In this document: piece by piece, positions 3,201 to 30,930 of the stretch
How the letters are laid out: each line of letters starts with the position of its first letter
Numbering within the stretch: position 1 is the first letter of the stretch
DNA from: Elusimicrobia bacterium RIFCSPLOWO2_02_FULL_39_32
Lineage (GTDB): Bacteria; Elusimicrobiota; Elusimicrobia; 2-02-FULL-39-32
Direction: 5' to 3'
Assembly: GCA_001800135.1 (NCBI GenBank)
Contig: MGUU01000024.1
Span: 1 to 64,000 of the forward strand
Length of the DNA stretch: 64,000 bases
Made by a program: the position numbers and the translations under genes
The notes under the pieces: generated by a model
Seen by the model: the letters and a program-made list of their open reading frames with translations, nothing else
What the model was told of the DNA's origin: nothing
Database searches by the model: none

Positions 3201-6200
3201 GTATGCAATAAGTAAGAGATCCCATGGCTTTAGCTCTGGCGCATTCGGAGGAGATATCCATTATCAGATTGCTCAAGAGCTAAAGAGTTTAGGAATAAAG
3301 CCAGAACGAATTCAAATTGCCTCCAATCAGGGACACGCACAAATCATTTTTCCTTGGACCCATCCCAGTTCAAAAGCAGAAAAAATTTATAGCATAACAT
3401 TTGTGGAAGTGAATCTTGTGCAGATTGAAAATGATTTCGATGTGCCGCCATTCCTAAATGAGTTATTTCAAAAAAGGATTGATATTTATTACCAAAGAGG
3501 CGCTTTCCTTTTTCTGGGGTTTTACACCAAATTTTTACGGCGTTTAATGTCTTCTATCGTAAAAGAAGGCGGGTATCTCGTTGTTGATGATATGGAATTG
3601 CCCGTGCCGGCATTTCAACCTGAGGCGGGAGAGTCGAGCATTCTTGAGAAGATAAGCTCCAGCCGGTTAAATTATTGGAGGGATGTTCTAAAGTCAATAC
3701 TTAGAGATTCTTATGGCTGGAATCAATCTGTCTATTTAAAGAAAACCATATCTCAACCTGCGGAGGATAAAACTCAATCACTGCGCCACAAGTCCAAGAC
3801 CGGCAGAGCGTCTCCTAAAAGAAAAAATATTATTCCAGGGATCGCCATTGGTCTTGTTTCATTGGGCTCTTCATTGAGCAGGTTTATTTACATGATCATT
3901 ATGGGCTCACTTGCTGTTATGGGGATTGTGGGGATGGGGTCTGACGCGGGAGTCGGAGGCGTGGAAAGCGGTGGAGCAGGAGGTGGAGGTACTGGAGGAG
4001 GTGGAGGCGTAGGGGGCGGTGGAGCGGGCGGAGTTGCAGACCCAGGTACAGGTACAGAAAGCGGCGGTGGAGGAGTAGGAGCGAGATTTGCTGCGCAAAA
4101 TTTTGATGTTGTTTCTCAGGCTATTCTTCTTGAACTCGACGCCCGCTATGGGTTTGTAGAGGAAGACCATCCCATTTATAGTTATGCAAATCAAATATTC
4201 CAGAGGATATTGGAGCAGACTAAAAGTAAAGATGGGAGTCGTCCGCGGCTTTATATTTTTAAAGATAAAATGGTCAATGGTTTTGCGTTGCCAGATAAAA
4301 GCGTGGTCCTTGGTTTGGGGATATTGGATTTGGTTCATACAGAAGATGAACTCGCTTCCGTATTTGCGCATGAACTCACTCATGTGGAAAGAGAACATCA
4401 TTCTGATCTCTTGGAAAATATTAAAAACGGAAAGTGGACGCTTAAAGAGAGAATCGGCGCAGGGCGCGCTTATGAAGTGGATGCCGATTTTATTCCTCCC
4501 GTCGCGATCTTGGGCCAAGCGGGTTACAACCCTTTAGCCGGCGAGACTCTGTTTGAGCATATGCAGTCGGAGGAACAAACCGAGAAGTGGGACTTGGAAC
4601 ATGGCAGCCTCGAAGATCGAAGGCTCAATCTATTGTCTTTGCGGTATCTGATAGATCTTAAAGGAATTGAACGGCTGCAGAAACCAGTTGATTCAAGTTG
4701 GAAAGAGATGGTTCGAAAGAAAATTGAATCCCTGCCGGAGATTTCCGACTTCAATGCGGCTAAAGAAAAACTGCTGAATGCGGATGAAGATCAAGTGAAG
4801 GGGTTGATTGAAAGATTGGTCGAGCATAAAGACCCTAAAGCATGGATTTTATTGCGAGAGGTTTTATCTGAGCTTCACAAAGAAGTGCTGGATGAGACCT
4901 CAAAACAGCAGATCGAATATAAAGCGATCTCCAACCCGCATCAAGTTGGCCCGTCGTTTAGCTCTTATCCGCAGTATCGTTTGACGGTAAAGGTGGATAA
5001 AGAATTGGAAAGAAAATATAAGACCGTCTCCCGCATTCTTTCTAAAATTTTTAATGACCTCATTCCTTCGCAGTTTCCGCAGATTGAAGGGATCGCTGAG
5101 AGAAATAATATCTTGGGAAGTTTGCTCCTCTTTGGTTTGGGCATAGATATTTTTGATCGCTACCGATATACGGGCAACGATCCTCATCAAGATGTCTGGC
5201 TGATTCGCCGGATCTCAGGCGAGGAATCCCAAGACCCTTTTTCCTTCTATTTAGTTGACTATGATCTCGGCGTGCCGAGCTTTAAAAATTTCTATATTGG
5301 CCAACAGTTTACGATAAATCTTATGGATGAGGACGAACCATTTGAAGGAATTATAAAAGCGCTCGACCCAGGAATTTTTCATTCTCTGGGGATTTATACT
5401 CTTCCTTCGAAAGGATTTTGGCAAGATGAAACCAGTTTACTTAACCTCATTAAGTATGCGGTCTCAAAGGATGTGGGTCTTTTTTATGATCAAGGGACAG
5501 GAAAATTCAATTTTCAACTCTTTTTTGAGCGGACGGACCGGCTAATACAAAAATTTGTCGAATTTAACCGCGCTTTTGGGAATGATTCGCTGTTAGCGGA
5601 GCATATCTTTGATAAGAGGAATCATATTTTGGATGAAGAAGGGCTCTTTGACCTATTGGTGGAAGATTATAAATCCCGCGGGTTATGGAACGTGGAATCC
5701 ATGCTCAAACTTTTGGGAGTGATTGACCGCGGCCAAAAAAAATTGTTGGAAAAATTTATCTTTGAAACTTCTCTCTTAACCAAAGAAGATCGAACCAAAG
5801 AAGAAGATCTCTTTTTAATGCTGGCGCTGGGTCAAATGAGGCTGCTTCCTCTCACAGAGGTGAGAGTCCGCGCCTCCAGCAAAGCGGAGGGGCTTAAAGT
5901 TCTAGCGGACATCAACCAAATGATGGTTGAGCTTGAGAATAGTCTAACACTAAATAAGCGGCACAGCGCCCATGTATTGTTTGTGGCTTATCTTGCTCAG
6001 CATGGTCCCGCCCAGTTTCTCCTTGATTTGGAAGGGTTTTTTAAAAATGTGCCGATGTTGCAAAAAGGCCGTTTCTATTCCATTTTAATCGAGCAGGTGA
6101 TCGCTCCTACGATGATTGAAGTTTCCCATTTAAGTGGAGATTCCCTCCGATTTTTACATGAGAATATTTTGGAAGTTCTTCACGGTTTCTTTGATATGTC

Positions 6201-27836: not shown

Positions 27837-28156
27837 TCCCGGGTAGCTCAATGGTGGAGCATCCCGCTGTAAACCCATGCAGCCTTGTCTGGAAACAGGC
27901 AAGTGAATAACCAGGTGAACTCAGGGAAGCCTAAGTCCTCATAAAGGATAAGGTAATCCTGAGCCAAGTTCCGACCATAAATCGGAAAAGGTGCAGAGAC
28001 TAGAACGTAAAGTTCGTACTCTATGAATTAGGGGAAGCGCCTGGCTCCGTAAAGAAAAATTATTTTCTTCGGAGATGATATAGTCCAAGCCTTAAGGAAA
28101 CTTAAGGATTACTTGTAACGGGAGGGTTGTAGGTTCGAGTCCTACCCCGGGAGCCA
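27837..28156 (+). tRNA. tRNA-Asn(GUU) split by a group I intron in the anticodon loop
   Basis: Exon 1 is 27837-27870 and exon 2 is 28116-28156; CCA is encoded. The acceptor stem TCCCGGG/CCCGGGA is perfect, the D stem is GCTC/GAGC, the anticodon stem TCCCG/CGGGA, the T stem GTAGG/CCTAC with loop TTCGAGT, and the variable loop is short. Joining after T27870 and before T28116 gives the seven-base loop CTGTTAA, the canonical tRNA-Asn loop with anticodon GUU. The unspliced sequence shows GTA and might be misread as tRNA-Tyr, but bacterial tRNA-Tyr has a long variable arm, which is absent here. Confidence 0.93.
27871..28115 (+). ncRNA. Group I intron (IC3-like), 245 nt, no ORF
   Basis: All core elements are visible. 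P1: exon GCTGT (27866-27870) pairs with GCAGC (27879-27883), putting the required U-G wobble at the splice site. P2: 27884-27891 with 27896-27903, closed by GAAA. P4: CTCAGG (27920-27925) with CCTGAG (27958-27963), within the P and Q sequences. R: GGTGCAGAGACTAG (27990-28003); S: TATAGTCCAAGC (28079-28090), forming P7. P9: CCTTAAG-GAAA-CTTAAGG (28090-28107). The intron ends with the obligatory G (28115). The P, Q, R and S strings closely resemble the Anabaena tRNA-Leu intron. It is small, lacks a homing endonuclease gene and is probably self-splicing. It sits between positions 35 and 36 of the tRNA. Confidence 0.92.
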
Positions 28157-28169
28157 AATAGGACGGTCC

Positions 28170-28211
28170 ATGCCTGAATTGTCGATTCTCAGTGACAATT
28201 CAGGCATTTTT
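28170..28211 (+). terminator. Rho-independent terminator after tRNA-Asn
   Basis: ATGCCTGAATTGTC (28170-28183) pairs perfectly with GACAATTCAGGCAT (28194-28207) around a 10-nt loop, followed by a T run. It starts 14 nt after the CCA end of the tRNA. Confidence 0.85.
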
Positions 28212-28265
28212 GTTGGTTCGAAAATTTTATTTGCCGTTTTCTCAAAATTTCCTATTTTCGAACTG
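28207..28265 (+). repeat. Intergenic repeat, copy 1 (TTTTTGTTGGTTCGAAAA family)
   Basis: The 18-mer TTTTTGTTGGTTCGAAAA at 28207-28224 recurs at 31490-31507. Similarity continues after a divergent spacer, with TTTTCT, AAATTT and CTATT blocks and a closing TCGAA. The element carries TTCGAA near both ends. The rest of the stretch to 28457 shows no convincing gene. Confidence 0.5.
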
Positions 28266-28457: not shown

Positions 28458-28778
28458 TTAGTCTCTTTCACTATCAAGGATTCTGTTAATGTCTCTCTTC
28501 CCATGAAGAACCCGAATAACCCGCAGCGCATCCTTTGTTACAAGGTAGTATATCCAAACGACTTCAAATCCTTTAACTGGCCATTTACGGATGCCTTGTA
28601 AGCGAGGATTTTTTAACTTTTTAGGCATTCCAATATTAGGTTGCTTAGTCAGTCGTGAAATTGTTTCATCCACCGCATCAACAAATCGGCTAGCAACGTT
28701 TGGGACGCCTTGATCAATCAAATAAATAAACTGATTAAGAATATCCTGTCGCGCTGTGGACCGGATAATAAATTTCAT
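28458..28778 (-). CDS. parE: ParE/RelE-superfamily toxin
   Basis: This 106-residue protein has the ParE layout: IIRSTARQDILNQFIYLI helix at the start, GMPKKL in the middle, and the VVWIYYLV and LRVIRVLHGKRDI strands at the end. ParE toxins poison DNA gyrase; RelE relatives cut mRNA on the ribosome. The family is clear but the target is not. The ATG overlaps the stop of the antitoxin gene by 4 nt (ATGA), so the pair is translationally coupled, antitoxin first. Confidence 0.85.
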   Translation of the reverse strand: MKFIIRSTARQDILNQFIYLIDQGVPNVASRFVDAVDETISRLTKQPNIGMPKKLKNPRLQGIRKWPVKGFEVVWIYYLVTKDALRVIRVLHGKRDINRILDSERD

Positions 28779-29044
28779 TTAGAAGCAGTTTTTCTATGTT
28801 TCTTTAATAATTGAGATGCTTCGGCCTTAAGATCCTTCCAGAACTCGCGAGTGATTTTGATATCCTCTCCAGATTCAAGCCCCTTCATTAAAAGAGTTTC
28901 GAGTTTTGCGTCAGCTTCTTGTTCTTGGGCTTTCCGAAGCAACGTCCGAACATACTCGCTAACATTGCCGAAGCCTTTATTTTTTATTTGTTTTTTGACA
29001 AATTCTTTCATTGGTTCAGGCATTGAAATAGTTACAGTTGTCAT
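28775..29044 (-). CDS. parD: ParD-like antitoxin
   Basis: This 89-residue protein begins with a ribbon-helix-helix DNA-binding segment (TTVTISMPEPMKEFVKKQI, then GNVSEYVRTLLRKAQ), as in ParD/CopG-type antitoxins. The acidic and then basic C-terminal half would bind the toxin. GGAGGTGAG just upstream of the ATG is a strong ribosome binding site. It probably represses its own promoter, where an inverted repeat overlaps the -10. Confidence 0.85.
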   Translation of the reverse strand: MTTVTISMPEPMKEFVKKQIKNKGFGNVSEYVRTLLRKAQEQEADAKLETLLMKGLESGEDIKITREFWKDLKAEASQLLKKHRKTASK

Positions 29045-29331: not shown

Positions 29332-30930
29332 TTAGAGAAGACCATGTTCTTTTCTAAAACCTGCCGGATCCACATCCCGAGTAAAAGATTTTGGCGGCTT
29401 GCCCAGAAGGATCATCAACTCTTGAATGTCAAAAATCCCATAATGTTCATCTGTAAAAGCTACAATTTTGGAACGGGTCTGAGAAATTGTATTGAGGCGG
29501 AATCTCCGAATTCCTTCTTCTGTGAGCTTCTGCCCCAATTCGGTGCGATAGGCATTAGTCAGATTGTACATGCATAATGTCAAAACGGCGTGAGCCGTCA
29601 CGGCTCGCTCTGTTTTCTTTGGGATCTTATTGATCAGCCATCCTTGTTTGAGTTCCCGGTTGGTTGTATTTTCAATAAGGCTGCGCCAATCGTATTTGTC
29701 GATAATTCCCAATGGATTAGACACTCCCAACGATGTCAAAAAAACCTTCTCATGTCCGGGATCGTAGTCTCTGCCATTCCAATGTGTCACCATAACCACA
29801 TGGATGGGATTGCCTTTGAAATCCTTGGCATGCGGATTTTTTTTCTGATGCTCCTCATCTCCATATTGATCATAACTGGTCAGTCCCAAGATCCCTACTA
29901 CCTTTAAGTTCTTGCTCTGCTGCCGGAAAATGATCTTCGGATCTTTCCCATCCCTCAAACCGCGCGCATCCTTGGTCACTGCCATGTCAGTGCGCGCTGG
30001 AATAATCCAGTCGATATGATAGGTATGCTTTAAGATCCAAAGAGTCAAACCATCCAGATAGCCCCTGTCGATTAGAAGCAGTTTGATCCTGCCAGATCCT
30101 ATGTTTTCTATGGCTTGCTGGATCAATGGCAGCGTCCAATTCTTTTCGGATTCATGTATCTGCGTGACCTTGGCCGCCACGATGATTCGCGAATCCAGGC
30201 TCCGCAGCAACATCAACTTGAATCCAAAGGTTGTTATTGAAAGGGTCACCAGTCTTTTCTCTTTGCGGCTCCAGACTTCTTTGTCTACCGTCTTGCGTCC
30301 TGCCCCTCCGCACTTCTCTGTGGTTGGTAGGTCTGTGGCATCCATCAAATACGTCCGATCCTTGATAAATCCTCGCTTGGACAAGAGCTTAACCCCTCCA
30401 TTTAAAATACCCTCTAACTCCCGGGGTGAAAAACGATCCAAAGCGTCGGCAAGGGTGTCTTTATGCAAGGGACGATTTTTCTTCCCTTGGCCTCTTTTGC
30501 AGTGTCCATTCTCGATCTGTTCGGCCGTGTAGCCCAGCATCATGAGCAACCCAATATCCCCAAACAGTAATCTTGGCACTTGATTCATCGAGTTTATGCC
30601 CATCAGAATCTTTATCTGGTATGTCAAAAGCAGTTTGGCAATGGTAATCATTCTCCGCGCGTATCCTTCCCCAGCCACATCCAAGCATTCCAGAAATCCA
30701 ATCGTCTTGATGAAGATTAAAAACTTGTCCAGAAAACCCCACCCCCCATGCTGGATCATGCGATAATCTCCTTTCACAATCCGTTGGGCGACCTCCTTCT
30801 GGTCTCGGGTCAGATGCCTCCACGCCAAATACTGGCGGTTCTTCCGCGCAGCTCGGCGCTGTCCGCGCTTGCGCGCCTGCTCCCGGTCCCGTTGATCCTT
30901 AACTGCCTGATTCCTTTTTTTACGGGCCAT
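29332..30930 (-). CDS. IS4-superfamily DDE transposase
   Basis: This 532-residue protein has a catalytic triad in the expected contexts: D197 in LMDATDLP, D288 in LLIDRGYLDG and E420 in YDWRSLIEN, which resembles the IS4-type YxxR...E signature. The long stretch between the second D and the E fits the beta-strand insertion of this superfamily. The N-terminus is very basic (MARKKRNQAVKDQRDREQ) and could bind the inverted repeats. The start overlaps the end of the upstream accessory ORF by 11 nt, suggesting coupled translation. The frame is intact. The closest named IS group (for example IS1634-like) cannot be decided here. Confidence 0.85.
   Translation of the reverse strand: MARKKRNQAVKDQRDREQARKRGQRRAARKNRQYLAWRHLTRDQKEVAQRIVKGDYRMIQHGGWGFLDKFLIFIKTIGFLECLDVAGEGYARRMITIAKLLLTYQIKILMGINSMNQVPRLLFGDIGLLMMLGYTAEQIENGHCKRGQGKKNRPLHKDTLADALDRFSPRELEGILNGGVKLLSKRGFIKDRTYLMDATDLPTTEKCGGAGRKTVDKEVWSRKEKRLVTLSITTFGFKLMLLRSLDSRIIVAAKVTQIHESEKNWTLPLIQQAIENIGSGRIKLLLIDRGYLDGLTLWILKHTYHIDWIIPARTDMAVTKDARGLRDGKDPKIIFRQQSKNLKVVGILGLTSYDQYGDEEHQKKNPHAKDFKGNPIHVVMVTHWNGRDYDPGHEKVFLTSLGVSNPLGIIDKYDWRSLIENTTNRELKQGWLINKIPKKTERAVTAHAVLTLCMYNLTNAYRTELGQKLTEEGIRRFRLNTISQTRSKIVAFTDEHYGIFDIQELMILLGKPPKSFTRDVDPAGFRKEHGLL

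Follow-up and report, generated by a model that had tools for sequence, protein, structure and literature searches.

What interrupts the tRNA-Asn gene of a bacterium that seems to have no other, and can the insertion be removed to leave a functional tRNA? We have studied this in a stretch of 64,000 nucleotides of DNA (the window), in which a reading of the sequence alone had placed a group I intron in a tRNA-Asn(GUU) gene. The host appears to be a bacterium of the class Elusimicrobia (Elusimicrobiota), not a cyanobacterium. The comparisons described below leave little doubt in our minds that the single tRNA-Asn(GUU) gene is split at 35/36 by a classical self-splicing group I intron, that this intron belongs to a site-specialised set that would have spread by homing, and that the focal copy now only splices.

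The tRNA-Asn(GUU) gene is split within its anticodon

Using default settings, ARAGORN reported no tRNA in the window. With introns allowed, the program found a tRNA-Asn(gtt) at 27837-28156, exactly where it had been placed before, whose anticodon loop contains an intron of 245 nt. Splicing generates a 75-mer that ARAGORN recognizes as a perfect tRNA-Asn(GUU) cloverleaf with an encoded CCA, bearing out both the identity of the host gene and its perfect arms. The intron lies between tRNA positions 35 and 36, in the middle of the anticodon; ARAGORN and the empty site of an ortholog (see below) both support this position, which the sequence-only reading had also given. Joined, the exons would give the intact gene product, tRNA-Asn(GUU), in agreement with that ortholog. 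The coordinates of the gene and of the intron elements are collected in Table 1.

Table 1. Elements of the split tRNA-Asn(GUU) gene and its intron, in window coordinates
Feature	Coordinates	Strand	Basis
tRNA-Asn(GUU) 5′ exon, positions 1-35, ends CUGU	27837..27870	+	ARAGORN with introns and on spliced sequence
P1 exon strand GCUGU, U-G wobble at splice site	27866..27870	+	sequence; precursor fold
Group I intron, 245 nt, without open reading frame, 3′-terminal G	27871..28115	+	RF00028, 88.4 bits; limits from ARAGORN and orthologous empty site of congener
P1 internal guide sequence GCAGC	27879..27883	+	sequence; GCAG[CT] in 72/73 Asn-site introns among the matches listed
P2 hairpin, GAAA loop	27884..27903	+	precursor fold; compensatory pairs
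P3 5′ strand (3′ strand 28037-28044)	27911..27917	+	RF00028; compensatory pairs; precursor fold
P4-P5 domain, conserved J4/5 and J5/4 adenosines	27920..27963	+	RF00028; homologue alignment; precursor fold
P6 domain	27968..27988	+	compensatory pairs; precursor fold
P7 5′ strand GACUA (3′ strand UAGUC 28081-28085); guanosine-binding helix, pseudoknot	27998..28002	+	RF00028 alignment; complementarity
P7.1-like hairpin, P7-P3 interval	28003..28015	+	compensatory pairs in 34 homologues; precursor fold
P7.2-like hairpin, P7-P3 interval	28019..28034	+	compensatory pairs; precursor fold
P8 hairpin	28045..28074	+	compensatory pairs; precursor fold
P9 hairpin, GAAA loop	28090..28107	+	compensatory pairs; precursor fold
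tRNA-Asn 3′ exon, positions 36-76, encoded CCA	28116..28156	+	ARAGORN
Palindrome resembling an intrinsic terminator, then T run, directly 3′ of tRNA gene	28170..28213	+	sequence; inverse BLAST match with ortholog

Two overlapping small frames 3′ of the tRNA gene, on the minus strand at 28458-29044, resemble a ParE/RelE-type toxin and antitoxin on inspection of the sequence alone; on the same footing, a 532-aa frame at 29332-30930, also on the minus strand, resembles an IS transposase.

The insertion has the structure of a group I intron

A covariance search had been put forward as a check of the group I assignment. The Rfam group I intron model RF00028 matches positions 27879-28107 over its entire length (1-253 of 253) with a score of 88.4 bits and E = 3.2e-21, where the gathering score is 50, and this is the sole Rfam match at the gathering threshold in the 64-kb window. 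The membership of the insertion in group I is likewise upheld by the fold of the precursor and by covariation. Minimum-energy folding of the 320-nt precursor, performed without constraints, gives all the tRNA arms together with P1, P2, P3, P4, P5, P6, P7.1, P7.2, P8 and P9. The previously described P2, P4 and P9 helices are therefore found in this fold; P7 is missing from it, being a pseudoknot and so beyond the folding program, and is seen instead in the RF00028 alignment and by complementarity. In P1, the GCUGU of the 5′ exon pairs with the guide GCAGC, so that the splice site is the U-G wobble. Sequence and fold agree on the guide and the wobble as originally read, and the last base of the intron (28115) is indeed G. 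We saw no clear P10 pairing between the guide and the 3′ exon. The P1 loop is just 8 nt, and there is no endonuclease frame in the focal intron.

Comparison of 34 homologues of the focal form reveals compensatory changes in P2, P3, P6, P7.1, P7.2, P8 and P9. An RNAalifold consensus also paired the exon GCUGU with a strand of P7; this is wrong, arising because P7 is a pseudoknot, and the pairs were discarded. The P7-P3 interval takes other forms elsewhere: other Asn introns have either a segment common to the tRNA-Ile(CAU) introns of Burkholderiaceae or a minimal one, and the two-hairpin P7.1/P7.2 form is absent from the sampled Leu and fMet introns and from two of four Arg introns.

By the established chemistry of group I introns, exogenous guanosine bound in P7 would cut after U35. 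U35 would then attack after the terminal G, joining the exons and restoring the GUU anticodon.

The split gene is the only tRNA-Asn gene found in the host

The host genome is a draft of 2.52 Mb in 27 contigs, 97% complete. It contains 44 tRNA matches, and when ARAGORN was applied to these regions every amino acid but Asn was assigned; for all the others uninterrupted tRNAs are available. A second tRNA-Asn had been suggested as something to look for in the rest of the genome. The class-wide pattern search (see below) found no uninterrupted tRNA-Asn there, leaving the split gene as the only one found. Because the intron occupies the cell's one tRNA-Asn gene, it could not be lost imprecisely without killing the cell.

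Three other group I introns occur in the genome, one of them in a tRNA-fMet gene and the remaining pair in the 23S rRNA gene. Those in the 23S rRNA gene (G000:C22:2838-3067 and 4876-5187; L002 and L003, G000 being the focal genome) each have a LAGLIDADG_2 frame. The tRNA-fMet intron (G000:C10, L004 1060-1798) is 664 nt long and encodes a close homologue of I-Ssp6803I (PDB 2OST, E = 1e-58); a Nitrospira genome (L254) has a similar intron. There is also an odd tRNA-like gene at G000:C16:62986-63108 (L041 187-309), with a hairpin-forming insertion of about 50 nt in its anticodon loop.

Presence and absence of the intron in relatives

The orthologous locus is patchily occupied among the relatives of the host. 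In the congener G001 the intron is exactly absent from flanks that are 90-97% identical to those of the focal genome (93% over 1089 nt upstream, 97% over 109 nt including the 5′ exon, and 90% over the 3′ exon and downstream flank). Two genomes of the same family, G003 and G006, likewise lack the intron at this locus. G004, by contrast, resembles the focal genome (G000) in carrying the intron there, with synteny on both sides; its intron is 84% identical and has an HNH frame.

We extended the comparison to 235 genomes of the class. The pattern employed required the 3′ core of the intron, a simpler pattern having picked up mostly ordinary tRNA-Thr(UGU). On this strict basis at least 26 of the genomes have the intron. 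Among the 141 that are at least 90% complete, an uninterrupted tRNA-Asn is absent from 16/18 of those bearing the intron, yet present in 109/123 of those free of it (Fisher p = 4e-11, counting genomes as independent and uncorrected for their relatedness). Two intron-bearing genomes, G029 and G145, have a match to an uninterrupted tRNA-Asn as well. A cell whose sole copy of an essential tRNA gene is split has to excise the intron, and we strongly infer that splicing must work in vivo in members of the class.

Distribution across bacterial phyla

A pattern comprising the intron 3′ core followed by the 3′ half of tRNA-Asn was run on a collection of 84,980 species genomes. Because ARAGORN alone mis-assigned several relatives (as Thr, Tyr or Phe), the limits of the introns in relatives were set by matching the acceptor and anticodon stems. 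Such stem matching revealed a precise tRNA-Asn intron in 43 of the 80 loci among the matches listed, the remainder being mostly ordinary tRNA-Thr. Four false long introns in Burkholderiaceae, which derived from upstream coding sequence, were excluded. When the introns from searches of the class and the family are added to those of the genome scan, the total is at least 73 introns lying between CUGU and UAA, and 72 of the 73 have the guide GCAG[CT]. The genome with the tRNA-Asn intron L264 also contains the locus L275.

The hosts include Elusimicrobia, Nitrospirota, Omnitrophota, Myxococcota and other 'Deltaproteobacteria', Aminicenantes, Acidobacteriota, Rokubacteria, Margulisbacteria, Cloacimonadota, Clostridia, many lineages of Patescibacteria, Burkholderiaceae and one cyanobacterium. 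In 13 of 15 non-Elusimicrobia genomes, picked for their Asn-site match, RF00028 scored above gathering on the intron; both Burkholderiaceae fell below.

An HNH endonuclease frame in the introns of relatives

HNH-type frames are present in 17 of the 73 Asn introns among the matches listed, with remnants in six more. They encode some 110-170 residues, start at or near the first base of the intron and lie inside the P1 loop, several continuing through the guide sequence. Their alignment shows the signature of an HNH zinc finger, with an invariant C-x2-C, HH and C-x-NC-H-x-E-x-H (invariant residues C37, C40, H52, H53, C86, N88, C89, H90 and H94). Matches to Pfam HNH families are weak, being obtained for 7/12 frames, with single ORFs below the gathering score and a best E of 2e-4. 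By tblastn, HNH proteins of phages match the frame of an Asn intron with up to 67% identity over 82 residues.

The series from full frame, through truncated frame, to none would be the trace expected of a homing cycle. We infer homing from similarity, position and patchy distribution: by analogy with the relatives, the HNH endonuclease of a P1-loop frame would cut intronless tRNA-Asn genes, spreading an intron that would be one of a set specialised on position 35/36. The focal copy would then have lost its endonuclease gene, leaving splicing alone.

Origin of the intron

The sequence-only reading had taken the intron to be close to that of cyanobacterial tRNA-Leu, and hence to have been transferred to a new tRNA host. 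Neither part of this is supported. Core identity between the focal intron and the Asn introns of three relatives reaches 84, 76 and 71%, compared with 51-58% for cyanobacterial Leu introns, a value no higher than with many other introns, and 50% for the fMet intron of the host itself. In a tree of the P3-P7 region, Leu, fMet and Arg introns stand apart (97/96) and the focal intron falls among Asn-site introns, although the deep branches are weak. The Burkholderiaceae Asn introns, with their compact P7-P3 region, lie near the fMet introns (98/98). In approximately unbiased (AU) tests a single clade was not rejected, whether it comprised all the Asn introns (p = 0.16) or their main group (p = 0.32). 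The tree is based on 174 columns only, and its branches are long. To judge from these comparisons, the focal intron is a member of an Asn-site lineage found in many phyla, and not a fresh jump.

How do other explanations fare against these data? If a cyanobacterial intron had recently moved from tRNA-Leu(UAA) to tRNA-Asn and its guide had been re-matched to the new exon, this would account for the same broad type of tRNA anticodon intron and for the level of core identity to Leu introns. We consider such a move highly improbable given that the focal intron clusters with Asn-site introns, that Leu introns lack the P7.1/P7.2 segment, and that the Asn-site introns are highly diverged and spread over many phyla. 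Still less credible is the view that the split gene is a pseudogene with a dead insertion and that tRNA-Asn comes from a gene elsewhere. A draft of 27 contigs that is 97% complete leaves some room for such a gene; yet the exons are perfect, the catalytic core is intact, no other tRNA-Asn was found in the genome, and intron and uninterrupted genes are nearly mutually exclusive across the class.

A different matter is whether group I introns entered position 35/36 of tRNA-Asn repeatedly, Burkholderiaceae being at least one separate case, and the site dictated the same guide on each occasion. This concerns origin only and is compatible with the self-splicing, homing intron that we favour, and we regard the chances as evenly balanced. 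The placement of the Burkholderiaceae introns in the tree and their compact P7-P3 region point toward it, as does the P7-P3 form found both in some other Asn introns and in the tRNA-Ile(CAU) introns of Burkholderiaceae. Against this stand the shortness of the alignment, the long branches, and AU tests that allow one clade for either grouping.

Relation to known tRNA introns

A close comparison is with the introns of tRNA-Leu, which are likewise small, ORF-less group I introns of a tRNA anticodon loop with a U-G splice site, widespread in their hosts. However, they occupy position 34/35 of Leu(UAA) rather than 35/36 of Asn, have another guide, lack the P7.1/P7.2 of the focal intron and are separate in the tree. 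The tRNA-fMet introns with the PD-(D/E)XK endonuclease I-Ssp6803I, one of which is found in the host genome, share location in a tRNA anticodon and endonuclease-driven mobility, but differ in tRNA, site and endonuclease family, that of the Asn introns being HNH-type. Those of tRNA-Ile(CAU) in Betaproteobacteria (Azoarcus type) and of tRNA-Arg(CCU) are also anticodon group I introns, and the Ile introns of Burkholderiaceae have the P7-P3 form common to some Asn introns; they differ in host tRNA and site, and the focal intron has the two-hairpin form.

The earlier reading could name no group I intron in tRNA-Asn, and our search of the open-access literature found no description of one in bacteria. 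The Asn-site set is probably, though not certainly, new to the literature, its mechanism being a classical one. A paper of 2017 claimed group I introns of 22-49 nt in cyanobacterial tRNA-Arg, Gly and Lys (PMC5733544). These inserts do not serve as a precedent, since a group I core would not fit into them and the claim does not extend to Asn.

tRNA-Asn joins Leu, fMet, Arg and Ile as the fifth tRNA known to harbour group I introns in bacteria, and it is a widespread host. The authors of tRNAscan-SE 2.0 state that their program was not designed for the detection of group I introns, and describe fMet and Ile2 tRNAs hidden by them (PMC8450103). Genomes that seem to be without the essential tRNA-Asn are explained because a default tRNA search misses the split gene. 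Within one class, and partly at one orthologous locus, we find the empty site, intron with endonuclease, decaying endonuclease and endonuclease-free intron, and this makes the homing life cycle testable. We think it somewhat probable that mobile group I introns specialised on tRNA-Asn 35/36, with an HNH endonuclease in the P1 loop, have spread over at least a dozen bacterial phyla, in part via phage tRNA arrays, holding the sole tRNA-Asn hostage while invisible to standard annotation, and that they were previously undescribed.

Split tRNA genes in viral sequences

Two viral contigs of IMG/VR (L305 and L306) contain a tRNA-Asn with a group I intron at 35/36, set in tRNA arrays whose other genes number 11 and 15. 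One of these introns matches RF00028 with 90.1 bits. Among the PHROG families encoded in the flanks of the contigs are homing endonuclease and 2OG-Fe(II) oxygenase, which is consistent with phage; there was no virion gene in the stretch read. The whole gene had no match at E 1e-5 in collections of plasmids and phages, and the intron alone gave only weak matches in the phage collection. The phage HNH homing endonucleases that resemble the Asn-intron frame, for example those of Cronobacter phage CR3 or Klebsiella jumbo phages, differ in that the genes examined lie outside tRNA-Asn.

In the jumbo Klebsiella phage KP13-7 (OP617745.1; L331 ~1425-1740) an unannotated CAU tRNA is split by an intron of group I, which RF00028 matches with 104 bits. 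According to a review of 2014, every group I intron observed in phages up to that time lay in a protein gene (PMC3984707); the two viral contigs and KP13-7 run counter to that statement, and together they suggest a route between phyla. By our reading the KP13-7 intron would lie between positions 36 and 37. An HNH gene is located downstream of this split tRNA, and phages related to KP13-7 have the same intron.
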